DNA from: Chloroflexota bacterium
GTDB taxonomy: Bacteria > Chloroflexota > Anaerolineae > Anaerolineales > UBA4823
Assembly: GCA_029265355.1 (NCBI GenBank)
Contig: JAJUJL010000012.1
Coordinates: forward strand, 62,001-126,000
Reading direction: 5' to 3'
Length of the DNA stretch: 64,000 bases
Shown: piece after piece, positions 3,829 to 20,392 of the stretch
How positions within the stretch are numbered: position 1 is the first letter of the stretch
How the letters are laid out: every line of letters begins with the position of its first letter
Notes under the pieces: generated by a model
What the model saw: the letters and a program-made list of their open reading frames with translations, nothing else
Database searches by the model: none
Told to the model about the DNA's origin: nothing
Position numbers and translations under genes: made by a program

Positions 3829-3910
3829 TTAAGTGCTGATGATTGAGACCTGACGTCACTATTCCCCCTCGCCCTGCAATTTCCTTACTGATGGTGCCTG
3901 AATACGGAGA

Positions 3911-5971
3911 ATGTCTATGATTGCAAACCTTGGTTATGGCTCTCTGGTGATCACCTTCCTGCTATCATTGTACGGCGTTTTCGCTGCGGTTTATGGCGCG
4001 CGCCGGAATGCGCCTGCCTGGGTGGACAGTGCGCGCAACGCCATGTTGTTGACCTTTCCGCTGCTGACCTTGTCGGCCTTGAGCATTATCTACCTGCTGG
4101 TGAATGGCAACTACGAAGTGGAGTATGTCGCCTCGGTAACCAGCAACAGCATGCCGATGTATCTCAAGGTGACCGCCCTGTGGGGCGGGCAGGCAGGTTC
4201 GCTGGTGTTTTGGACCTGGCTGATGGCAGCCTTTGCCTCTGCGGTTACCTTGCGCAAATGGGATCGCGACCGCGAGTTCTTGCCCTGGGTCATCGTGGTA
4301 GCATTGATTACCCTGGCCTTTTTCCTGTTGATGATCATTTTCTTTGAGAATCCCTTCGAACGCATCTGGCGACTGCCTTTTGGTCAACCCGTTAAGGCCA
4401 TGTTTCCGCCAGCCGGAGCCGAGCTGCTCATCCAGCCAGATGGTCGCGGGCTGAACCCGCTGCTGCGTCACCCGGGGATGATCATTCACCCGCCGATGCT
4501 TTACCTGGGTTTCGTCTCTTTCGTGATCCCGTACGCTTTCGCCATCGCTGCTCTGGTCACCGGGCGCACCGACGATCGCTGGATCCGCCTCACCCGTCGT
4601 TGGACGCTGGTGGCCTGGCTTTTCCTCTCGCTTGGACTGGTGCTGGGTGGACGTTGGGCTTACGATGTGCTCGGCTGGGGTGGGTATTGGGGCTGGGATC
4701 CGGTGGAGATTGCCGCCTTCATGCCCTGGCTCACCGGGACTGCCTTCCTTCATTCCGTGATGATCCAGGAAAAGCGCGGCATGCTCAAGCACTGGAATAT
4801 GGTGCTGGTTATCCTGACTTATGACCTGGTGATCTTTGGCACTTTCTTGACTCGCTCGGGTGTGCTTTCTTCGGTGCATGCTTTTGCTCAGAGCGCCATC
4901 GGCCCGCTGTTCTTCGTCTTTATCGGTCTGACGTTGATCGCTTCGGTGGCTTTACTGCTCTACCGCTGGTCTGAGCTAAAGGCCGAAGCCGAGATGACCT
5001 CGCTGTTCTCGCGAGAAGCGCTCTTCCTTTTGAATAACCTGCTCTTCCTGGGCATCCTGGTGGTGTGTTTTTGGGGAGTGATCTTCCCCTTAATTTCTGA
5101 GCTGGTCACCGGGCAAAAAGTGACCGTGGGTCCGCCTTTCTATGAGCGCGCCACAGGCCCGCAGTTTGCTGCTCTATTGCTGTTGATGGGTGTGGCGCCC
5201 CTGGCTGCCTGGCGGCACTCGACCGCCAAGACGCTGGGACGCGCCATCTGGCGCCCTGCGCTTTTCTCTTTGCTCGTTCTGGCAGCCGTGATCGTCAGCG
5301 GTGTGACCAATTGGGCCGCCCTGTTGGGATTCTGGCTGTCGGCTTTCGTGGCTTCGGTAACTCTGTACGAATTCTGGCGCGGCGCGCTGGCCCGCCATCG
5401 CACGTCTGGCGAATCGTTGCCGCTGGCGCTGTGGCGCTTGATGGGGCGCAACCGCCGTCGCTACGGTGGTTACATCATTCACCTGGGTGTGGTGCTGATG
5501 GCGATTGGTGTTATTGGCATCGAGCTTTTTCAGACCGAAACCCAGGGCACGATTGCCCAGGGTGAGCGCCTGACACTCGGCCGTTTTGCAATCCAGTTCG
5601 ATGAGCTGGCTAATTTCGACACCCCAGATGGTCGCAACGTGGCGCGCGCCGTGGTCAGCGTTTACAAGGATGGCGAAAAAGTCCGTGAGCTGTACCCACG
5701 CCGGGATTACTATTACGAGTCGCAACAGCCCATGACTATCCCTGGCGTGCGCAGCACCTGGGAGGATGATTTCTACGTTCTGCTGGTGGATTGGCAGCCG
5801 GTTTCGGCCTCTGGGGCGACCTTTAAGGTGTATCATAACCCGTTGGTAAACTGGTTATGGTTGGGCAGTATCATTTTCATCTTGGGTACAATGGTAGCTG
5901 CCTGGCCGGATAAAGACCCCGAAACTGAGGCCAGAATGGTGCGCCGCACGCTGGTCGCCGCCAGGGCATAG
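3911..5971 (+). CDS. ccmF: Haem lyase subunit CcmF
   Basis: The 686-residue polytopic protein has about 14 hydrophobic segments. It carries LWGGQAGSLVFW near residue 95 and the haem-handling WWD-type signature WGGYWGWDPVEIAAF near residue 255. CcmF receives haem from CcmE and, with CcmH, attaches it to CxxCH cysteines of apocytochromes outside the membrane. Its length is usual for the family. ATG at 3911 follows GGAGA. It is the second gene of the maturation locus and is followed 31 nt later by ccmH. Confidence 0.95.
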   Translation: MSMIANLGYGSLVITFLLSLYGVFAAVYGARRNAPAWVDSARNAMLLTFPLLTLSALSIIYLLVNGNYEVEYVASVTSNSMPMYLKVTALWGGQAGSLVFWTWLMAAFASAVTLRKWDRDREFLPWVIVVALITLAFFLLMIIFFENPFERIWRLPFGQPVKAMFPPAGAELLIQPDGRGLNPLLRHPGMIIHPPMLYLGFVSFVIPYAFAIAALVTGRTDDRWIRLTRRWTLVAWLFLSLGLVLGGRWAYDVLGWGGYWGWDPVEIAAFMPWLTGTAFLHSVMIQEKRGMLKHWNMVLVILTYDLVIFGTFLTRSGVLSSVHAFAQSAIGPLFFVFIGLTLIASVALLLYRWSELKAEAEMTSLFSREALFLLNNLLFLGILVVCFWGVIFPLISELVTGQKVTVGPPFYERATGPQFAALLLLMGVAPLAAWRHSTAKTLGRAIWRPALFSLLVLAAVIVSGVTNWAALLGFWLSAFVASVTLYEFWRGALARHRTSGESLPLALWRLMGRNRRRYGGYIIHLGVVLMAIGVIGIELFQTETQGTIAQGERLTLGRFAIQFDELANFDTPDGRNVARAVVSVYKDGEKVRELYPRRDYYYESQQPMTIPGVRSTWEDDFYVLLVDWQPVSASGATFKVYHNPLVNWLWLGSIIFILGTMVAAWPDKDPETEARMVRRTLVAARA

Positions 5972-6002
5972 GATTTGGGCAATGCAACCGAGGAGAGTAG
6001 GA

Positions 6003-6488
6003 ATGAAGAAATTTTTATTGATCGGTTTGCTGACCTGTTTACTGGCTGGCTTGTCCACCGGCCTGGCTTTGGCACAGGATCCTCAGCCAGGCCTGCCGTC
6101 CGATGACCAGGTGAACGCCATCGCCAAGCAGCTTTATTGCCCGGTCTGTGAGAACATTCCTCTGGATGTGTGCGGCACGCAAGCCTGCGCCCAATGGCGC
6201 GAGCTGATCCGCGAAAAGCTGAGCCAGGGTTGGAGCGAGGCGCAGATCAAGCAATATTTTGTCGATCAATACGGCGATCGGGTGCTGGCTACGCCGCCAG
6301 CGCGCGGTCTGAACTGGCTGGTCTATGTCGTTCCACCGCTTGCCATACTGCTGGGAGCTTTCATGCTGTACCGCGCCTTCCGCGCCTGGAAGCAGCCTGC
6401 ACTGCCATTGGCGGAGAGCAACAGCAGCCTCCAGTCTCCGGCGGATGAGTACGTGCGCCGCCTGGAAGAAGAACTGCGCAATCGCTGA
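6003..6488 (+). CDS. ccmH: Cytochrome c biogenesis protein CcmH
   Basis: The 161-residue protein has a signal sequence (1-24), then the redox motif YCPVCEN and the conserved helix segment CAQWRELIREKLSQGWSEAQI followed by QYGDRVLA, all diagnostic for CcmH/CycL; these are quoted in pieces from residues about 40-95. A membrane segment follows at about 105-125. It keeps apocytochrome cysteines reduced for haem ligation with CcmF. ATG at 6003 is preferred over the in-frame ATG at 5982 because GGAGAG lies 7-12 nt before it. The family usually shows RCxxCQ, so CPVCEN is a variant. Confidence 0.9.
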   Translation: MKKFLLIGLLTCLLAGLSTGLALAQDPQPGLPSDDQVNAIAKQLYCPVCENIPLDVCGTQACAQWRELIREKLSQGWSEAQIKQYFVDQYGDRVLATPPARGLNWLVYVVPPLAILLGAFMLYRAFRAWKQPALPLAESNSSLQSPADEYVRRLEEELRNR

Positions 6489-7713: not shown

Positions 7714-9669
7714 ATGAACAAACGATTAATCGCTCTTCTTCTGTTGATGATGGCAACTTCAGTGCTGCTGTCTGCCTGCGAATTCTCGCTGGCAGCCGAT
7801 ATCACACCGCCGCCGGGTGCGCAGCAAATCTCCACTGCCCGCACGCAACCGGCAGGCACCAGCGGGCCGCTCTACCCGCTGGTGCCGCCCGACCCGGTCA
7901 ATGGGCAGGCGATCTACGCCGAGAAGTGCGCTCCCTGTCACGGGAATACTGGGTTGGGAGATGGCCCCCAGGCCTCACAGTTGCCTAATCCGGTGACCGC
8001 GCTGGCCTCCCTGGAAGTGGCTCGCCAGGCTACCCCGGCGCGTTGGTACACCCAGGTCACCCAGGGCAACCTCGAAAAATTCATGCCCCCTTTCCGCAGC
8101 CTCTCAGAGCGAGAGCGTTGGGATGTGGTGGCGTATGCTTTCTCGCTCAGTTTACCGGCTGAAGTATCCAGCACGGGGGCTGCATTGTATCAAGAAAACT
8201 GCGCCCGCTGCCATGGCGCAACCGGGCAGGGCGATGGCGTGGAGGCTGCCAACCTGGGAACCACGGTGGTAAACCTGACCGACCAGGCCAAGATGGCGCA
8301 ACGTACCCAGGCCGACTTTTACGCCGCCATCACCAATGGCGTTGCGCCGGCGATGCCCGCATTTGCCAGCACGTTGAGCGAGGACGAGCGTTGGGTGTTG
8401 GCAGGCTACCTGCGCACATTGTCATTTGTATCCAGCAACCAGCCTCAGGCAAGCCAGCAAACTGGTGACCAAGGCACGCCTGCGCCGGAAACCACGCCCA
8501 TCACTGCCACCCTGCCGGTGAGCGGCACCGCAGTGGCGGCAGCCCCCGAAGCTGCGACCAGCCTGGGTGTGATCAGCGGCAGCGTGGTGAACGCATCTGG
8601 CGGCGATGCACCGGTGGGCGCTGAAGTGCTGTTGCGCGGCTTCGACGATATGACCGAGGTCTACTCACAGACCACCACGGTTGGGGAGAATGGCACTTAC
8701 ACCTTCGAGAATGTCGAGATGCCCGAGGGCCGCGTCTTCATGGTCACACTGGATTACAACGATGCGGTCTATGGTTCGGATATTGCCATTGTCGAAGCCG
8801 GCACAACCAGCATGGATCTGCCGGTGACTGTGTATGACACCACGAGCGATACATCATCGCTCTCGGCTGATCGCCTGCACCTGTTCTTCGAGTTCACTGA
8901 AGATCAGCGCAGTGTACGCGTTATCCAGCTTTTCATTTTGTCGAACAGCAGCAATAAGACGGTGGTGCCGCCAGCAGAAGGACAGCCCAGCGTGACCTTT
9001 AGTTTGCCCGAGGGGGCTACCAACCTGGAGTTTCAGGATGGTGTTTTGGGCGGGCGTTACATCGAAACCGAAGATGGATTCGGCGACACCGCCGCCATAC
9101 GCCCGGGCAGCGGCACGCACGAGGTGCTGTTTGCCTATGAGCTGCCTTACGATCGCAAGCTGGACCTGGCGCAGAAGATGACCCTGCCGGTTGGCGCGGT
9201 GATCATCTTGCTGCCGGAAGGCGGCGTGAAAGTCAAGGGCGATACCCTGCAAGATGCCGGTGTGCGCGATGTGCAGGGCGTGCAGTATCACCTGTACAAC
9301 GGTCAAGGCCTGGCGGCCGGTTCTCTGCTCAACCTGACGCTGAGCGGTGCGCCAGCGACCGCCTCTGCTGGCATCACACTGGGTTCTTCGACCAACCTGG
9401 TGGTCGGATTGGGCGCCTTTGGGTTAGCGCTGGTAGCGGCGGGCGTCTGGTTATACCGGCGCAGCCGCAGCAGCGAGCAGGAAACCGACTTGATCGAAGA
9501 GGCCGAGCTTCCGGTTAGCGATGCAGAGGAAAGCGCTGAATCTTTGATCGACGCGATCATTGCCCTGGATGACCTGTACCAGGACGGCCAACTTCCAGAA
9601 GACGCCTACCAGCAGCGCCGCGCGGAGCTAAAGGCTCGCTTGGAGGAAGTGTATCGTCGCGGGCAGTGA
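7714..9669 (+). CDS. Dihaem cytochrome c lipoprotein with regulatory-like beta domain and cytoplasmic tail
   Basis: The 651-residue protein has a lipobox LLSAC22, then two cytochrome c domains with CAPCH (72-76) and CARCH (about 163-167), each with a distal Met candidate (KFMPPF; PAMPAF). A low-complexity linker follows, then a carboxypeptidase-regulatory-like beta domain (about 285-365), a further beta region, a membrane helix (about 565-587) and an acidic tail with LYQDGQLPEDAYQQRRAEL. It lies inside the ccm operon and overlaps ccmA by 4 nt. It is probably an electron carrier on the outer face; the partner is unknown. Both a lipid anchor and a transmembrane helix are unusual. Confidence 0.8.
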   Translation: MNKRLIALLLLMMATSVLLSACEFSLAADITPPPGAQQISTARTQPAGTSGPLYPLVPPDPVNGQAIYAEKCAPCHGNTGLGDGPQASQLPNPVTALASLEVARQATPARWYTQVTQGNLEKFMPPFRSLSERERWDVVAYAFSLSLPAEVSSTGAALYQENCARCHGATGQGDGVEAANLGTTVVNLTDQAKMAQRTQADFYAAITNGVAPAMPAFASTLSEDERWVLAGYLRTLSFVSSNQPQASQQTGDQGTPAPETTPITATLPVSGTAVAAAPEAATSLGVISGSVVNASGGDAPVGAEVLLRGFDDMTEVYSQTTTVGENGTYTFENVEMPEGRVFMVTLDYNDAVYGSDIAIVEAGTTSMDLPVTVYDTTSDTSSLSADRLHLFFEFTEDQRSVRVIQLFILSNSSNKTVVPPAEGQPSVTFSLPEGATNLEFQDGVLGGRYIETEDGFGDTAAIRPGSGTHEVLFAYELPYDRKLDLAQKMTLPVGAVIILLPEGGVKVKGDTLQDAGVRDVQGVQYHLYNGQGLAAGSLLNLTLSGAPATASAGITLGSSTNLVVGLGAFGLALVAAGVWLYRRSRSSEQETDLIEEAELPVSDAEESAESLIDAIIALDDLYQDGQLPEDAYQQRRAELKARLEEVYRRGQ

Positions 9670-10442
9670 GCGCGTTGGAAGTTACCTTGAAGCACGAGGT
9701 CCACGTAGTAAATGACCCAGAGGCCACCAAGATCAACCCTATGATCGACGTTCGTAAGCTGGTAAAACGATTTGGCCTGAAGACCGTGCTGCGCGGCCTG
9801 GATTTTCAAGTTCAGCCGGGCGAGTTTGTGGCTTTGCTGGGGCCGAACGGAGCTGGCAAAACCACCTTCCTGCGCATACTGGCTTCCTTATCGCGCCCCA
9901 ACCTGGGACAGGTGACCATTGCCGGTCATGCTTTGCCAGGCCAGGCTGCTGCTGTGCGCCGGCGATTAGGCGTGGTTTCGCACTTGCCATTGCTGTACAA
10001 CGATCTGACTGCCGAGGAGAATCTGCGTTTCTTCGGGCGCATGTACGCCGTGCCAGATCTCGACCGGCGCATCACGGAAGTCCTTGAACTGGTTGGCCTG
10101 GCGGCGCGCAGGCGCGACCTGGTACGCACCTTCTCGCGCGGCATGCAGCAGCGCCTGGCGATCGGGCGGGCGGTGTTGCACGATCCGGACGTGATGCTGT
10201 TCGACGAGCCGCACACCGGCCTGGATCAGGACGCTTGCCAGATGCTGGATGGTGTGCTGCGCGAGGTGGCGGCGCGCGGCCGCACGGTGGTGATGACCTC
10301 CCACGACCTGGCGCGGTCCGCAGACCTGGCCTCGCGCTTCGATGTGCTTTCGCGTGGCGTGATCATCGCTTCCGTGCAGCGCAAAGAGATCGAGCCGAAT
10401 GATTTGCTGGCTTTCTATCGCCAGGCAACCGCGGGAGCCTGA
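9666..10442 (+). CDS. ccmA: Haem exporter ATP-binding subunit CcmA
   Basis: The 258-residue ABC ATPase has Walker A GPNGAGKTT, a signature written FSRGMQQRLAIGRA (SRGMQQR replaces the usual LSGGQ, as is common in CcmA) and Walker B VMLFDEPHTGLD with a switch His in TSHD. With CcmB it forms the ABC complex that releases holo-CcmE from CcmC. GTG 9666 overlaps the previous stop; ATG 9741 is an alternative that begins directly at the ABC domain (MIDVRKLVKRF). Confidence 0.92.
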   Translation: MSALEVTLKHEVHVVNDPEATKINPMIDVRKLVKRFGLKTVLRGLDFQVQPGEFVALLGPNGAGKTTFLRILASLSRPNLGQVTIAGHALPGQAAAVRRRLGVVSHLPLLYNDLTAEENLRFFGRMYAVPDLDRRITEVLELVGLAARRRDLVRTFSRGMQQRLAIGRAVLHDPDVMLFDEPHTGLDQDACQMLDGVLREVAARGRTVVMTSHDLARSADLASRFDVLSRGVIIASVQRKEIEPNDLLAFYRQATAGA

Positions 10443-13151: not shown

Positions 13152-13778
13152 TCAATATGCCTTTGACAGCAGTTCTGCCAGCACCTCGCCAGACTGCTTC
13201 TCGATCACGGCGTGCTGGCTGCCGCCATGCGAATCCATCGTCACTACCACGGGGAAATCCTTGACCTCGATCACCCACATCGCTTCCGGTACGCCGAAAT
13301 CTAGCTTGTAGACGCCCAGCACCCTTGTCACGGTTTGGGCGATCAGCGAAGCCGCCCCGCCGATGGCATGGAAATACACGCCGGGCACCTGCTGGCAGGC
13401 TTCCAGAGTCTTGGGTCCCATGCCGCCTTTGCCGATCACGCCTTTGACGTTGAAGTGGCGCATCACGTCGCCCTGGTAAGGCTCTTCGCGCGAGCTGGTC
13501 GTTGGACCGGCAGCCACGAAACGGTAATCGCCCGTGTCGAGGCCGGCGACCACTGGGCCGCAGTGATAGATCACGCCGCCGTCCAGCAGCGGCTTGATCG
13601 CCTCATAGACCTGCAAATCATCGCCCTGCGGCGGACGAGTTTTTTTGACGAACGTCTCCACCATCCACTTGTGAGCCGCGTCGCGCCCGGTGATCATCAC
13701 CCCGCTGAGCGCCACCGGCGCGCCGACCTTTAGCCCGCGGATGGTTTTGTCGCTGATGGGAATGGTTACTTTTTGCAT
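13152..13778 (-). CDS. Class I fumarate hydratase, beta (C-terminal) subunit
   Basis: The 208-residue protein matches the C-terminal domain of iron-sulphur fumarases and tartrate dehydratases, with LSGVMITGRDAAHK, YHCGPVV, AAGPTTSSRE, GKGGMG and FHAIGGAA. It combines with the alpha subunit encoded upstream to interconvert fumarate and malate. The preceding alpha gene is 365 bp away, a gap filled by repeats, which is unusual for this normally tight pair. Confidence 0.93.
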   Translation of the reverse strand: MQKVTIPISDKTIRGLKVGAPVALSGVMITGRDAAHKWMVETFVKKTRPPQGDDLQVYEAIKPLLDGGVIYHCGPVVAGLDTGDYRFVAAGPTTSSREEPYQGDVMRHFNVKGVIGKGGMGPKTLEACQQVPGVYFHAIGGAASLIAQTVTRVLGVYKLDFGVPEAMWVIEVKDFPVVVTMDSHGGSQHAVIEKQSGEVLAELLSKAY

Positions 13779-14143
13779 ATTATCTCCTGTATTATTCCGA
13801 ACCGCGAAGAAAAAAGATCAACACAAAGGACGCAAAGGAGGTACAAAGTCCACAAAGGGCATTTATTAAGTACTTTGTGATCTTTGTCTTCATTCTTTGT
13901 GGTCTTCGTGTTTCACCTTATTTGATCTTAGCTGTCATTGCGAGATGTTTCCATGACGCTGGAAGCGTCATCCGGACTGGGAATGACAGATATGTCATGA
14001 GTAGACCAGCGTAGTGTGCTGGTCGTGGCAATCTCCTATCAGATCATTTTGCGTGGCCCACATCGTGCGAGCAGCTTTTCCCTTGGCGTCTTCGTGGTTT
14101 ATCTCTGTGCATGGTCTACTCGGGGCGAGCAGCTTTCGCCGGA
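13779..14143. repeat. Dispersed intergenic repeats between the two fumarase genes
   Basis: This 365-bp gap has no convincing gene. 13810-13915 holds short CTTTGTG/CTTCGTG-like repeats and their complements. 13916-14078 resembles 24838-24958: both have CTGTCATTGCGA near the left and a 63-nt block (14016-14078 versus 24896-24958) that differs at about three positions. A partial inverted copy occurs near 35379-35420. The repeats seem to have entered between two genes of one enzyme. Confidence 0.75.
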
Positions 14144-15016
14144 TCAGGCGTAGCTGGCCTGCCCATCCTGCCAGGTCATGCGCCGTCGGCGGTAAGCCCA
14201 GCACATATAGGAAACCGACACGAAGTAGCTGGCGGGCAGCCGGTTCAGGGCCGTGATCTTGGTGTCCAGCACGGTGGTGTTGCCGCCGAAGCCCATCGGG
14301 CCGATGCCGAGCTGGTTGGATTCCTGCGTCAGGCGTTCCTCGAGCGCCGCCAGCTCCGGGTTCGGGTTGGTATCGCCCATCTGGCGGAAGAGCACTTCTT
14401 TGGAGGCATAGTAGGATGAACCGCGGTCGCCGCCGATCGCCACGCCCAGGATGCCCGGCGCGCAGCCTTTGCCCTGCGCCTTGTGCACCGCGTCCAGCAC
14501 CACCTTGCGCACGCCGGCCAGGTCGCGGCCCGCGCCCAGAGCACTGTTGGGCAGCGAATATTGCGCTCCCACATTCTCGCAGCCGCCGCCTTTCAGCATC
14601 AGATCGACAGTCAGCGTCTCACCATCCACCTCTTCGAAGTGGATGGAGGGGAAGTGGTGCCCGCCCAGGTTGTTGCCGGAATTGCGCCCGGTGAGCGAAT
14701 CCACCGAGTTGGGGCGCAGGTAGGAGCGCCTGGTGGCTTCTGCTACCGCGGCTTCGATCTGAGCGCGCAGCTTGCGCGTGCTCCAGCCTTCGGGGTGGTA
14801 GACGTAAAAGATGGGTGTGCCGGTGTCCTGGCAGATGGGCGTCGAATTGGCGCGCGCCAGCTCCACATTCTTCAGGATGGTTTCCAGCGCGCCGCGCGCC
14901 GCCGAACCGGGGGCTTCTTTTTCCACCGCCTGGCGTAGCGAGGCTTCCACATCGGGCGGCAGGTCGGTCGCCGCCCGGCGGATGAGTTCGAGGATGGGTT
15001 CGGTCAGATCTTGCAT
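14144..15016 (-). CDS. Class I fumarate hydratase, alpha (N-terminal) subunit
   Basis: The 290-residue protein is the [4Fe-4S]-binding half of a two-subunit class I fumarase. The three cluster cysteines are in PICQDTGTP (about 62), GGGCENVG (about 147) and GKGCAPGILG (about 186). GGDRGSS follows the last. ATG 15016 follows GGAGG at 5 nt. It works with the beta subunit downstream in the TCA cycle. A tartrate dehydratase activity cannot be excluded from sequence. Confidence 0.93.
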   Translation of the reverse strand: MQDLTEPILELIRRAATDLPPDVEASLRQAVEKEAPGSAARGALETILKNVELARANSTPICQDTGTPIFYVYHPEGWSTRKLRAQIEAAVAEATRRSYLRPNSVDSLTGRNSGNNLGGHHFPSIHFEEVDGETLTVDLMLKGGGCENVGAQYSLPNSALGAGRDLAGVRKVVLDAVHKAQGKGCAPGILGVAIGGDRGSSYYASKEVLFRQMGDTNPNPELAALEERLTQESNQLGIGPMGFGGNTTVLDTKITALNRLPASYFVSVSYMCWAYRRRRMTWQDGQASYA

Positions 15017-15334: not shown

Positions 15335-17746
15335 ATGCCGCTGCTCTGGCTTTCACTGTGCTTCTTAACCGGTATCCTGCTGGCGAGCTGGCTGGGCGCC
15401 GGTTGGGCTGCCGCTGCCGCGGGTGTTGCCGCCCTGGCGCTGCTGCTGGGCTGGGTGCTCGAGCGGCGCTACCCTGGCAACCTGCCTGCCTGGGCGGCGC
15501 CTCTGCTGCACGCCGCACCGCTGCCGCTGTGGCTGCTGGCGCTGGCGCTTACCGCCGGCGCGCTGCGCTTCGCTGCCAGCCTGCCCGACCGCGAAGCCCC
15601 CAAATCACTGGCTTTCTACAACGACAACCTGGAGCGCCTCACCGTGGAGGGGGTGATCGTCGCCCCGCCGCGCCGCCTGGACGATTACAGTGAGGTACGC
15701 CTGCGCGTCGATCTGCTCACCGTCGAGGGTGATGAAACGGGTAAAACCGTTCAGGGGCTGCTGCTGGCGCGGCTGCCGCGCGAAGAGGACTGGCGCTATG
15801 GCGACCGGCTGCGGTTGACCGGCATGCTGCAGACCCCACCTGAGACAGAGGCCTTTTCCTACCGCGACTACCTGAGCCGGCAGGGTGTGCTGAGCTGGAT
15901 GCCATCGGCGCGCGCTGAGGTAATCAGCAGTGGGCAGGGCAGCCGCTTTTTCAGCGCATTATACGACTTTCGTCTGCATGCGCTCGACCGCCTGTACCGC
16001 ATCTTCCCCGATCCCGAGGCCTCCTTCCTGGCGGGTGTGCTGCTGGGCGAGGAGTCCGGCATCCCGCAGCAGATGGAACGCGCCTTTCAAAATACTGGCA
16101 CGTCGCACGTCATCGCCATATCCGGATTCAATATCACCATTCTCGCCGGGCTGTTCACCTGGATCTTCAGCCGCCTGGTGGGTCGCTGGCGCGGCGCGCT
16201 GCTGGCGGCCCTCATGATCTCGCTCTATACCCTGCTGGTGGGCGCGGGGGCGGCGGTGGTGCGAGCGGCCATCCTGGGTGTGCTGGCGCTGGGCGCGCGC
16301 CAGGTGGGGCGGCGGCAGCAGGGCGTCAACAGCTTGTCCTTTGTAGCGGCGGTCATGGCGCTCTTTAACCCCAACGTGCTGTGGGATGTGGGCTTCCAGC
16401 TTTCGTTCACCGCCACGCTGGGGCTGGTGCTGTACGCCGATCCGTTGGTGGCGGGTTTCAACAACCTCTTCAACCGCCTGTTCGGACGCTGGATCCCAGC
16501 GCAGGCGGTGCAGCGCATCTCCGGTCCGGTGGGCGAGTACCTGCTGTTCACGCTGGCGGCGCAGGTGATGATCCTGCCGGTGCTGGTCTACCATTTCCAG
16601 CGGCTGTCGCTGGTTTCGCTGCTCGCCAACCCGGCCATCCTGCCGGCGCAGCCGGCGGTGATGCTGGCAGGCGGGCTGGCGCTACTGCTGGGGCTGACCG
16701 ATATTCGCCTGGGCCAGCTCGCCGCCTGGCTGGCCTGGCCGTTTGCCGCCTACACCATCCGAGCGGTGGAAGCGTTTAACCGCCTGCCGGGCGGTGTGCT
16801 GGTTTTTGGCAGGATGGCGATCATTTGGGTGGCGCTGTACTACGCCGTTTTGCTGGGCTTCACTTTCTTTGGGAAGCAGCTCAAGGCCTGGGCGGCGAGG
16901 CGGCTGGGAGAGTTCTCGCCGCAGGCGGCCGCCCTGCGCGGGCTGGCGCTGCTCGGCTTGCTCTTGCTCAACGGCGTGGTATGGCAGAGCGTGCTGGCGC
17001 GTCCCGATGGACATTTACACGTGACCGTGCTCTCGGTGGGCAGCGCCGATGCGCTGCTGGTGCAGACTCCGGATGGCAGGCGGCTGCTGATCGACGGCGG
17101 TCCCAGCACCACGCGGCTGGCGGAGGCGCTGGGTAGGCGCCTGCCGCTGCTCGACCGCCATCTGGACGCCTGGATCGTCGCCGCACCTTCGCAGGAGAAC
17201 CTGGCGGCGCTGCCCGACCTGGTGGAGCGCTACCCGCCCGCGCAGGTGCTGTGGGCGGGTGAGACATCCGGAACGGCGGCGGGGAGGCGGCTGGTGCGCG
17301 AGCTGGCAAGGCTGAATATCCCGCTGGTGTCTCTCGAAAGCGGGCAGACGCTCGACCTGGGTGAGGGCGTGATGCTGCGCTTGCTGGCAACCGGCAGACG
17401 CGGCGCGGCGTTGCTGCTGGAGTGGAGGCGCTTCCGCCTGCTGCTGCCGCTGGGTGTGGATTTCGAGAGCCTGCCGCTCTTGCTGGAAGATCCTGCCCTG
17501 AAAGATGTAACCGCCGTGCTGCTGGCGGAGAGCGGCTACGCCCCCGCCAACCCGCCGGAGCTGATCGAGCATCTCAACCCACGGCTGGCGCTGATCAGCG
17601 TGGCGGCGGGGGATTGGCAGGGACTGCCATCAGAGGAGACGCTGCATGCGCTGGAGGGGAGAACGGTGCTGAGGACGGATCAGGCGGGGTGGATTGAGCT
17701 GATTACGAACGGTGGGCAGATATGGGTGGAGGTGGAACGGAAGTGA
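15335..17746 (+). CDS. comEC: ComEC/Rec2-type DNA uptake channel with degenerate MBL domain
   Basis: The 803-residue protein has an N-terminal DUF4131-like region, the Competence domain with FLAGVLLGEESGIPQQ and TSHVIAISGFNI (residues about 230-270), many membrane helices to about 545, and a C-terminal metallo-beta-lactamase-like domain starting VTVLSVGSADALLV. ComEC moves single-stranded DNA across the membrane during transformation. In the usual domain the HxHxDH metal site follows LIDGG; here that region reads IVAAPSQENLAAL, so the metal ligands are missing. No strong ribosome site precedes ATG 15335. No other competence genes are in the window. Confidence 0.9.
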   Translation: MPLLWLSLCFLTGILLASWLGAGWAAAAAGVAALALLLGWVLERRYPGNLPAWAAPLLHAAPLPLWLLALALTAGALRFAASLPDREAPKSLAFYNDNLERLTVEGVIVAPPRRLDDYSEVRLRVDLLTVEGDETGKTVQGLLLARLPREEDWRYGDRLRLTGMLQTPPETEAFSYRDYLSRQGVLSWMPSARAEVISSGQGSRFFSALYDFRLHALDRLYRIFPDPEASFLAGVLLGEESGIPQQMERAFQNTGTSHVIAISGFNITILAGLFTWIFSRLVGRWRGALLAALMISLYTLLVGAGAAVVRAAILGVLALGARQVGRRQQGVNSLSFVAAVMALFNPNVLWDVGFQLSFTATLGLVLYADPLVAGFNNLFNRLFGRWIPAQAVQRISGPVGEYLLFTLAAQVMILPVLVYHFQRLSLVSLLANPAILPAQPAVMLAGGLALLLGLTDIRLGQLAAWLAWPFAAYTIRAVEAFNRLPGGVLVFGRMAIIWVALYYAVLLGFTFFGKQLKAWAARRLGEFSPQAAALRGLALLGLLLLNGVVWQSVLARPDGHLHVTVLSVGSADALLVQTPDGRRLLIDGGPSTTRLAEALGRRLPLLDRHLDAWIVAAPSQENLAALPDLVERYPPAQVLWAGETSGTAAGRRLVRELARLNIPLVSLESGQTLDLGEGVMLRLLATGRRGAALLLEWRRFRLLLPLGVDFESLPLLLEDPALKDVTAVLLAESGYAPANPPELIEHLNPRLALISVAAGDWQGLPSEETLHALEGRTVLRTDQAGWIELITNGGQIWVEVERK

Positions 17747-17750
17747 GGTC

Positions 17751-18213
17751 TCCATTTACGGATAAGGTGTGGACGGAGAAGGTGGGACGGGTAAGGGTTA
17801 GGCGTGGAGGTAGCCAGGAGACCGGCGGGTTGAGTAGGTGTTGGATTGGTTTTGGTCGTAGGCGCCAGGGTGTCGGTAGCCGGCGCGTGGGTCACCTCCC
17901 AGGGGAACGGCTGAGCAGGCATGAAGGTTGGTGTAAGTGTACCGGGACCATAAGCAGAGCTGGTGACATCGGTGGTATAGGGTGGAGGGTGCGTTCCCTC
18001 CCTGACAATAAACCCGCCATCCTTTGTCAACAATACGTTGAAGCTATCTGTTCCAACAATAGTTCGACCTACGTTAAGTAAACCGCCGAAAGTTTTTAGA
18101 GTAAATCGGCCATCACGTTGGCGGTTTACTCCAGGGTTTCGCCGGTGCTTGTCAGATTTTTGTAAAAACACTTCCGGCGAAACACCTAAAGAAAAAGAAA
18201 ATCTGTCTATCAA
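17751..18213 (-). other. Unexplained stretch after comEC with a doubtful open frame
   Basis: This stretch is less GC-rich than comEC. One minus-strand frame is open from a TTG at 18213 and runs into the comEC 3' end. Its product has a Thr/Pro-rich part similar in style to secreted proteins of this genome (TDTLAPTTKTNPTPTQPAG). There is no ribosome site or signal peptide, so it may be a remnant of a secreted-protein gene or chance. I do not call it a gene. Confidence 0.3.
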
Positions 18214-18389: not shown

Positions 18390-18534
18390 GCAGGGTGCAG
18401 CGTTTCTGCTGGAAGATGCAGCCCCAAAAGATGTGACCGCCGTGCTGCTGGCGGAGAGCGGCTAAGCTCCTGCCAACCCGCCAGAGATGATCGCGCATTC
18501 GGGAATTGCGGATGATCTGGTCATGATATAATAC
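18390..18534 (+). pseudogene. Fragment of a second comEC copy (upstream half)
   Basis: From about 18408 the plus strand encodes FLLEDAAPKDVTAVLLAESG, then a TAA stop, then APANPPEMIAH. This lines up with comEC LLEDPALKDVTAVLLAESGY followed by APANPPELIEH (17485-17575). The TAC codon has become TAA. Similarity fades at about 18534, where the ABC-F promoter begins. The matching C-terminal part resumes at 20401. Confidence 0.8.
18506..18532 (+). promoter_or_regulatory. Promoter for the ABC-F leader
   Basis: A perfect TATAAT lies at 18527-18532. TTGCGG at 18506-18511 is a possible but weak -35 box at a short 15-bp spacing. Transcription would begin near 18539-18541, only a few bases before the ATG of the leader ORF at 18543. 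Confidence 0.6.
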
Positions 18535-18730: not shown

Positions 18731-20392
18731 ATGATTGCCATCAGTCTTTCGAATGTTAGCTTGATCCTTGGCGCGCATCCTGTGTTTAAAAACCTGTCCT
18801 GGGAGATTCAACAAGGCCAAAAGATCGGTTTGATCGGAGCCAATGGCGCGGGGAAATCCTCACTCTTCAAGCTGATCACCGGGGAGTTCAGCCCCGAGCC
18901 AGGCGGAGGAGTTGTGCGCGCCAAAGGGGTGACGGTGGGCTACCTGCCTCAGCAGCCGGAATTTGACTCGCACCAAACGGTCTTCGAAGTCGCCATGCAA
19001 GGCAACCCGCGGGTAGCTGAGCTCGAGGCCAGTTTGACTCGCCTGGAGGACAGCCTGGGCGACCCGGCGGTGTACAACCACCCGCAGAGATTGGCGCAAT
19101 CGCTGGAAAATCAGCTCAAACTCCTGGAAGAGTACACGTTTTTAGGCGGGGAGAGCTATCCGAACAGGGTTCGTGAGCTTCTGCTTGGGCTCGGCCTGCC
19201 GGAAGTTGAATTAGAAAAACCCTGCACCGCGTTGAGCGGGGGCCAGAAAAAGCTGCTTGGGATCGCTCGCTTGTTGCTGGCTCGGTCCTCCGTGCTGCTG
19301 TTGGATGAGCCGGACAACCACCTGGACCTGGAAGGGAAGACTTTCCTGGAGCGGCTGATCAGCGAGTATCCGGGGACAGTCGTCATCATCTCTCACGACC
19401 GCTACCTTCTAGACGCCGTCGTGACTCATATTGCTGAGATCGAGGATGGCCGGTTGGTCACTTTCGCAGGCGACTACTCAAGCTACATTTTCGACAAGCA
19501 GCAGCGCCTGGCGCGACAGGAAGAGTTGTACCAGATCCAGCAGCGTGAGATCGCCCGCCTGGAAATGGCCCGCCGGCGGTATGCGTTATGGGTCCAGGTG
19601 AATGATAAATTCGCCAGCCGGTTGCGGGCGATGGAGACTCGCCTGGCGCGGATCGAGAAAATGGAGCGACCGACCCTGGAACGGCGCCGAATGGGACTCG
19701 AGCTGAACGGCTGGCGTGGGTCCAATAAAGTGGTAGAGCTCATCGGGGTGAAGAAATCCTTTGGCAGTCAGGTGGTTGTAGACGGTATCAACCTGATGCT
19801 CCACCATGGAGAACGGGTCGGATTGATCGGCCCAAACGGAGCAGGAAAATCGGTCCTGCTGCGCTTGATATTGGGGAGCGAAATTCCAGATGCCGGTGAG
19901 GTTGCCCTCGGACCTGGCGTCCGGGTGGGTTATTACGCTCAAGAGTATGAGAACCTGGATTACAGCCAGACCTTGCTGGAGGCGATCCGCTACGCGAGTG
20001 AGATGAGCGAAGCCAGCGCCGTTTCTTTTCTCATTCGTTACCTTTTTACTTACCACCAGGCAAACCAGAGCATAGGCGAGCTTTCCGGGGGAGAGCGAAG
20101 CCGGCTTCAACTGGCCTTGTTAGTCCTGTCGGGAGCGAACTTTCTGCTCTTGGACGAGCCTACCAACAACCTGGATATCGCTTCGTCGGAGGTGCTCGAG
20201 AATGCATTGGCTGATTTTGTTGGCACGGTCTTCGTGATCTCCCACGACCGTTATTTCCTGGATCGCACCGTAAATCGTCTCCTGATATTAGAAGACAGCC
20301 GGCTGGCTGAATTCACCGGCGGTTACAGCGATTACGCTGCGCAGCGAGAGCTCTTTACAACAAAGAATAGAAGGCTGAAAACCGGATTATAG
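18731..20392 (+). CDS. ABC-F family ATPase, probable ribosome-protection (antibiotic resistance) protein
   Basis: The 553-residue soluble protein has two ABC domains without membrane segments: Walker A GANGAGKSS (36-44), signature LSGGQKK and DEPDNHLD in the first; GPNGAGKSV, LSGGERSR and DEPTNNLD in the second. An arginine-rich helical linker with RQEELYQIQQREIARLEMA and RLARIEKMERPTLERRR lies between them. ABC-F proteins enter the ribosomal E site; resistance members dislodge drugs, others tune translation. The GGAGGT site is directly behind a terminator hairpin and leader ORF, the arrangement seen for inducible resistance members. The gene sits inside a broken comEC copy, so acquisition by transfer is likely. 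The drug class cannot be read from sequence. Confidence 0.85.
   Translation: MIAISLSNVSLILGAHPVFKNLSWEIQQGQKIGLIGANGAGKSSLFKLITGEFSPEPGGGVVRAKGVTVGYLPQQPEFDSHQTVFEVAMQGNPRVAELEASLTRLEDSLGDPAVYNHPQRLAQSLENQLKLLEEYTFLGGESYPNRVRELLLGLGLPEVELEKPCTALSGGQKKLLGIARLLLARSSVLLLDEPDNHLDLEGKTFLERLISEYPGTVVIISHDRYLLDAVVTHIAEIEDGRLVTFAGDYSSYIFDKQQRLARQEELYQIQQREIARLEMARRRYALWVQVNDKFASRLRAMETRLARIEKMERPTLERRRMGLELNGWRGSNKVVELIGVKKSFGSQVVVDGINLMLHHGERVGLIGPNGAGKSVLLRLILGSEIPDAGEVALGPGVRVGYYAQEYENLDYSQTLLEAIRYASEMSEASAVSFLIRYLFTYHQANQSIGELSGGERSRLQLALLVLSGANFLLLDEPTNNLDIASSEVLENALADFVGTVFVISHDRYFLDRTVNRLLILEDSRLAEFTGGYSDYAAQRELFTTKNRRLKTGL

Follow-up and report, generated by a model that had tools for sequence, protein, structure and literature searches.

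The window analysed here, a stretch of 64,000 nucleotides from an Anaerolineales-like Chloroflexota bacterium, carries a comEC gene (15335–17746, + strand) whose 803-aa product is the sole PF03772 protein found in the source genome (5.05 Mb, rated 98% complete). Pfam recognizes two regions of this protein: an OB-fold domain (DUF4131; aa 19–185; 15389–15889, +; E 3.9e-17) and the Competence domain, that is, the channel (aa 236–510; 16040–16864, +; E 7.6e-52, 176.8 bits against a cut-off of 23). C-terminal to the Competence domain the Pfam scan gives no match, Lactamase_B being silent; this part of the protein (aa 561–803; 17015–17743, +) is a metallo-beta-lactamase (MBL)-fold domain that lacks the metal site. 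An earlier note on this DNA had set the start of the domain at 17014, which is one base out of frame, since the domain frame begins at 17015. The Competence domain, the OB fold, and the MBL-fold C-terminal domain, the last two common in ComEC/Rec2 DNA channels and not universal, together place the protein among these channels. The NCBIfam equivalog model TIGR00361 (ComEC_Rec2) scores 98 bits, below its cut-off of 190.05, and its match stops at aa 593. An intact second ComEC in the source genome is ruled out by the single PF03772 match and by the lack of any other ComEC-type MBL among the proteins found.

Upstream of comEC lie two fumarase genes (Fumerase, Fumerase_C; 13152–15016, −), and downstream an ABC-F type ATPase (18731–20392, +). 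A 177-aa open frame on the opposite strand (17680–18213, −), which has no Pfam match and may be non-coding, overlaps the end of comEC with its C-terminal end. DprA is present in 34 of the 38 genomes of the window's family (referred to below as f1), the window's own included, and an HHH_3 domain of the ComEA type, which is not specific for ComEA, in 37 of the 38, again with the window's own among them.

The earlier note had also reported a decayed second copy of the gene. The match is real: a 92-bp relic of the 3′ part of comEC (18407–18498, +) is 88% identical to 17481–17572, contains an in-frame TAA, and scores 117 bits against a best of 28 bits in 200 dinucleotide shuffles. It is, however, a single local fragment of the same gene and not a gene copy; the motif II region lies outside it, and it gives no support to the idea of a lineage of such ComECs, which the note had seen hinted at in it. 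Further copies of comEC have been noted elsewhere. In one genome (G007), a second comEC split over two overlapping frames (L092:9258–10894) lies about 5 kb downstream of a copy with an intact frame, with the nuclease domains dead in both, and in a genome of another family of the order (G053, f4) the locus L328 carries a tandem pair of comEC genes, both without the HxHxDH motif.

The C-terminal domain and its metal-site positions

The last 243 aa of the window ComEC align over nearly their whole length with the solved ComEC nuclease domains. A phmmer search with the window domain alone finds 9ic4 at E 7.4e-10, and a profile built of 42 relatives reaches 4.6e-30 to 9ic4, 2.2e-27 to 30bt, and 4.7e-13 to 9vc6; a profile–profile comparison of the order's degenerate domains with 43 intact relatives gives E 7.4e-57 over 248 columns. 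The AlphaFold2 model of the domain, computed from an alignment of relatives, has an MBL fold (pLDDT 95.9, pTM 0.92), and its nearest solved structure is again 9ic4 (Foldseek E 1.2e-19; Z 29.7, rmsd 2.3 over 239 residues). The full-length model is of moderate quality (pLDDT 78.7, pTM 0.62), and when it was used as a Foldseek query, the alignments ran through the C-terminal domain only among the matches listed. Chance similarity is far too weak an explanation for these matches, and the domain is a homologue of the ComEC nuclease domains.

In the ComEC of Moorella glycerini, metal coordination has been ascribed to H598, D600, D602, H603, and D700, and putative DNA binding to H725, as described in PMC12455585. 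These six positions, together with H726, which was added in this analysis, were scored; in terms of motifs, they are the ligands of HxDxDH, the Asp of SADIE, and the two His of HHGS. In the window protein, the seven positions are occupied by A, S, E, N, G, E, and S, so that none of the seven is kept. THPDADH of M. glycerini aligns with AAPSQEN (17180–17200, +; H598, D600, D602, and H603 replaced by A, S, E, and N), SADIE with PLGVD (17447–17461, +; D700 replaced by G707), and PHHGS with AESGY, where ESGY stands instead of HHGS (17528–17539, +; H725, H726, and S728 replaced by E, S, and Y). The motif I region reads VGSADA (17036–17053, +), while the intact proteins have VGQGDA. Finally, the N(R/N)FGHP loop is replaced by DWQGLP (17612–17629, +). 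To judge from sequence, this loop would be the "loop 2" pin needed by the ComEC of Legionella pneumophila, in which, according to PMC12455585, the loop 2 double mutation F689A/F691A blocks transformation.

Sequencing or assembly error is ruled out as the source of these replacements, as another 26 f1 loci share the losses. Across the f1 proteins, the C-terminal stretch of the alignment has 12 acidic or His columns with a conservation of at least 80%. The single His among them is H562, in the first, N-terminal strand, and one of the columns, E479, is in the channel; the aligned stretch of the 27 f1 domains holds no conserved Cys, and the D700 column is G in all 27. Judged from residue conservation, not from model geometry, the dinuclear metal site is absent. 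The nuclease activity has very probably been lost with it, as the acidic residues still conserved are not accompanied by the histidines that a dinuclear site requires; with no such site, the domain would not hydrolyse DNA by the known mechanism.

These results bear out much of the earlier note, in which VTVLSVGSADALLVQ and LIDGG were described as kept (both are seen in the alignment), the HxHxDH region as replaced, and the nuclease function as one that would be lost with the channel remaining. The losses at SADIE and PHHGS lie beyond those that it listed.

Distribution, repeated change, and selection

The window ComEC has a match in 30 of the 38 f1 genomes, and the full-length proteins, the window's own excluded, are 44–56% identical to it. 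The seven positions were scored in 181 of 183 loci from f1, from the other families of the same order (f2–f15), and from other families of the class, the two remaining loci being cut by the contig. Among 27 f1 proteins, 21 keep none of the seven residues and six keep one; in f2–f15 (n = 53), 31 keep none, 15 one, six two, and one three. All 80 ComECs scored in the order therefore keep three residues or fewer (52 keep none), and no intact nuclease domain occurs among them. The other class families (n = 101) include 52 proteins with scores of 0 to 3 (18, 13, 13, and 8, respectively), six with 4, none with 5, and 43 intact ones (six with 6 and 37 with 7). The class sample is not random: it began with the 30 loci that matched best, and the rest were hand-picked among the matches listed, mostly one per genus. 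One of these families, f23, forms a graded series with scores of 6, 4, 3, and 2. A further 80 named loci, mostly titled Chloroflexota, Chloroflexi, Anaerolineae, or Anaerolineales bacterium, score 0 in 57 cases, 1 in 22, and 2 in one; they overlap the genome sample, as contigs of two of its genomes, G026 and G031, match CP070764.1 and JAGVAD010000016.1 in position or length. The lineage of such ComECs that the earlier note had suspected thus exists and takes in every ComEC scored in the order. Among open-licence papers searched by titles and abstract openings, none was found on the loss of the ComEC active site in Chloroflexi or Anaerolineae.

Such domains easily escape Pfam. At E ≤ 0.01, Lactamase_B detects one of 76 domains of the order (four of the 80 scored proteins, cut or short, were left out) versus 43 of 43 intact domains of the class, so a degenerate domain is scored as absent in surveys. 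The histories of ComEC domain gain and loss in PMC6299819 are described there as built on Pfam hits, and therefore "absent" in them may include "dead". As a caution, whether the nuclease domain is missing or dead cannot be told from surveys based on Pfam.

The intact or degenerate state was mapped onto trees built from ComEC without its last 260 aa. A FastTree of 112 rows needs 10 changes when partial sites are counted as degenerate; a quick IQ-TREE run with 85 rows needs eight, at least five of them forced by starred branches; and a tree of 38 rows needs seven, with a single clade of all degenerate rows rejected (AU p 1.7e-61, for a group chosen after the trees were seen). Since the trees need 7–10 changes, the site has probably been lost repeatedly; the counts themselves carry no direction, and loss would be the likely one because a site made of many residues is more easily lost than regained.

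The degenerate domains have not been released from selection. The dN/dS of the domain, computable in 21 of 25 degenerate pairs, ranges from 0.05 to 0.26 (0.06–0.26 in the 14 pairs with dS < 1), and two intact pairs give 0.09 and 0.28. Moreover, the order's domains share residues of their own: W640 is found in 78% of them versus none of the intact domains, R701 in 70% versus 9%, W786 in 78% versus none, N739 in 72% versus none, and P740 in 74% versus none; G690 and G707 are likewise common in the order and mostly missing from intact domains. This is the pattern of a kept, altered domain under purifying selection rather than of a decaying one. The order-wide recurrent loss and the selection on the domain, as well as the separate intact domain gene of some relatives described below, go beyond the earlier note.

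Role of the domain and removal of the other strand

In our view, the window protein is probably a true ComEC, the extracellular C-terminal pseudo-nuclease of which has been kept by selection as a structural part. The domain would be packed on the channel mouth and the OB fold within the uptake complex and would possibly guide DNA over a remodelled surface on which W, R, F, and NP residues are conserved, while the non-transforming strand would be removed by another nuclease or displaced. We infer that catalysis is absent, that the domain has a structural role, and that DNA uptake continues; what the computations show is the homology and fold of the domain, the loss of its ligands, the spread of that loss across the order, the repeated changes of state, and the purifying selection. 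In active ComECs, mutation of metal ligands has been described to reduce or abolish transformation (PMC8579336, PMC12455585), and therefore a natural loss of the ligands implies a changed mechanism. The putative strand-separating loop is altered too, which weakens the idea of a domain that plays the same guiding role without cutting. As a counterpoint, the channel in Anaerolineales might serve something other than DNA uptake.

An arrangement in which the dead ComEC domain is complemented in trans by a separate intact ComEC-type nuclease is unlikely for the window, although it is suggested by some relatives elsewhere in the class. Five of the seven genomes of the family f42 carry a detached gene, the product of which consists of a single hydrophobic helix and an intact nuclease domain of the ComEC type with the motifs HPDGDH, LLTGD or LLTAD, and HHG, and the ComEC domains are dead in all six genomes where they can be resolved, the comEC of the seventh (G250) being cut; in G250 and G297, the matches to such a detached gene are only partial or weak. 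The one genome of f32 (G188) likewise combines a detached intact domain with a dead ComEC domain. In one f42 genome (G227, L314), the detached nuclease gene (9153–10163) begins about 3 kb after comEC (3870–6149); the further f42 and f32 loci with such a gene are L315, L316, L317, L318, and L322. The detached domains cluster together in the tree (SH-aLRT starred), nested among the intact ComEC domains and separate from the standalone clades of secreted and of lipoprotein-like proteins. Six of the 38 f1 genomes encode a secreted intact MBL (E ≤ 1e-100), which belongs to another clade. Against this stands the window's genome, where three queries found no separate ComEC-type MBL, so that the arrangement is unsupported for the window itself. 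In the order, a separate intact-type MBL occurs in five of 151 genomes (E ≤ 1e-20, among at most 18 candidates scored per genome), and in the class, standalone MBLs, counted by hand among the matches listed (to about 1e-18), occur in eight of 74 genomes with degenerate domains versus eight of 43 with intact ones (Fisher p 0.27), by which compensation by a standalone MBL is rejected as a general rule.

Two other standalone arrangements were observed. Three f35 loci (L319, L320, and L321; genomes G191, G267, and G221) encode an intact MBL with a lipoprotein-like N-terminus, and the f35 ComEC domains that were read (G191, G247, and G267) are without the motif. In G007, a secreted intact MBL (L090:3041–3943) adjoins a large protein (L090:4198–6897) with an Exo_endo_phos domain, which is of an extracellular nuclease-like kind.

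Equally doubtful is a replacement of the EndA type, in which an unrelated nuclease cuts the strand as in Streptococcus pneumoniae, a precedent described in PMC8579336, PMC5031224, and PMC12455585. A search confined to the nuclease family PF01223 recovered no such protein from the window's genome and found one in eight of 248 genomes of the class. A conserved nuclease gene beside comEC was also sought and rejected: within about 4 kb of the gene, even the most widespread neighbour family is shared by no more than 18 of the 80 named loci; the 14 most frequent families were judged by eye, without a domain search.

There is a still smaller chance that the domain is functionless and on its way out, as might be suspected from the very divergent domains of f14, f18, and f24 and from the comEC fragments in the window, in G007, and elsewhere; against this, the frames are open across the order, dN/dS is far below 1, the domains have conserved residues of their own, and the fold is predicted with high confidence. 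That the 12 conserved acidic or His columns make up a new metal site in a domain that is still catalytic is highly improbable, given the lone N-terminal His, the column in the channel, the lack of conserved Cys, and the invariant G in place of D700.

Taken further, the preferred reading of a structural pseudo-nuclease leads to a broader and more tentative proposal, which we regard as possible: that the whole order takes up DNA via a repurposed pseudo-nuclease ComEC without canonical strand degradation, that in one or more other families of the class ComEC is split, with a dead copy left in ComEC itself and the nuclease on a membrane-anchored protein of its own, and that some "nuclease-less" ComECs hide a pseudo-nuclease. 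The means by which the non-transforming strand is disposed of in bacteria whose ComEC lacks this nuclease is treated as an open question in PMC8579336. The order-wide loss amounts to a natural experiment: the class has intact relatives, the state has changed repeatedly, f23 forms a graded series, and one family has the nuclease as a separate gene; the detached nuclease of f42 and f32 may be the best lead on strand removal.

Comparison with known systems

The closest known counterparts, the nuclease domains of ComEC from M. glycerini and M. thermoacetica (9ic4; 30bt by sequence), have the same architecture and fold as the window protein, which differs from them in having all seven active-site positions replaced. 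Outside competence, pseudo- and active MBL subunits form pairs, as in CPSF-100/CPSF-73 and INTS9/INTS11, and CPSF-100 and Integrator chains were among the matches of the structure search. CPSF-100 and INTS9 likewise keep the MBL fold without catalysis beside an active paralogue; unlike them, the window protein has no partner among the proteins found, and a candidate partner is seen only in f42 and f32. The ComECs with the "DUF4131 + Competence" (DC) profile in PMC6299819, given there as the predominant profile of Cyanobacteria, Bacteroidetes, and Alphaproteobacteria, have the same two Pfam domains as the window ComEC, which in contrast has a folded third domain that is invisible to Pfam. In S. 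pneumoniae, ComEC also has an MBL domain of full length, substituted at most of its metal positions and described as probably inactive (PMC5031224, PMC8579336, PMC12455585); by the published description, two of the seven positions remain there and EndA does the cutting, whereas the window protein keeps none and no PF01223 was found. A ComEC with a dead nuclease is thus known in kind from S. pneumoniae, as described in PMC5031224; here it is order-wide, has probably arisen repeatedly, is invisible to Pfam, and in two families is accompanied by a split of the system.
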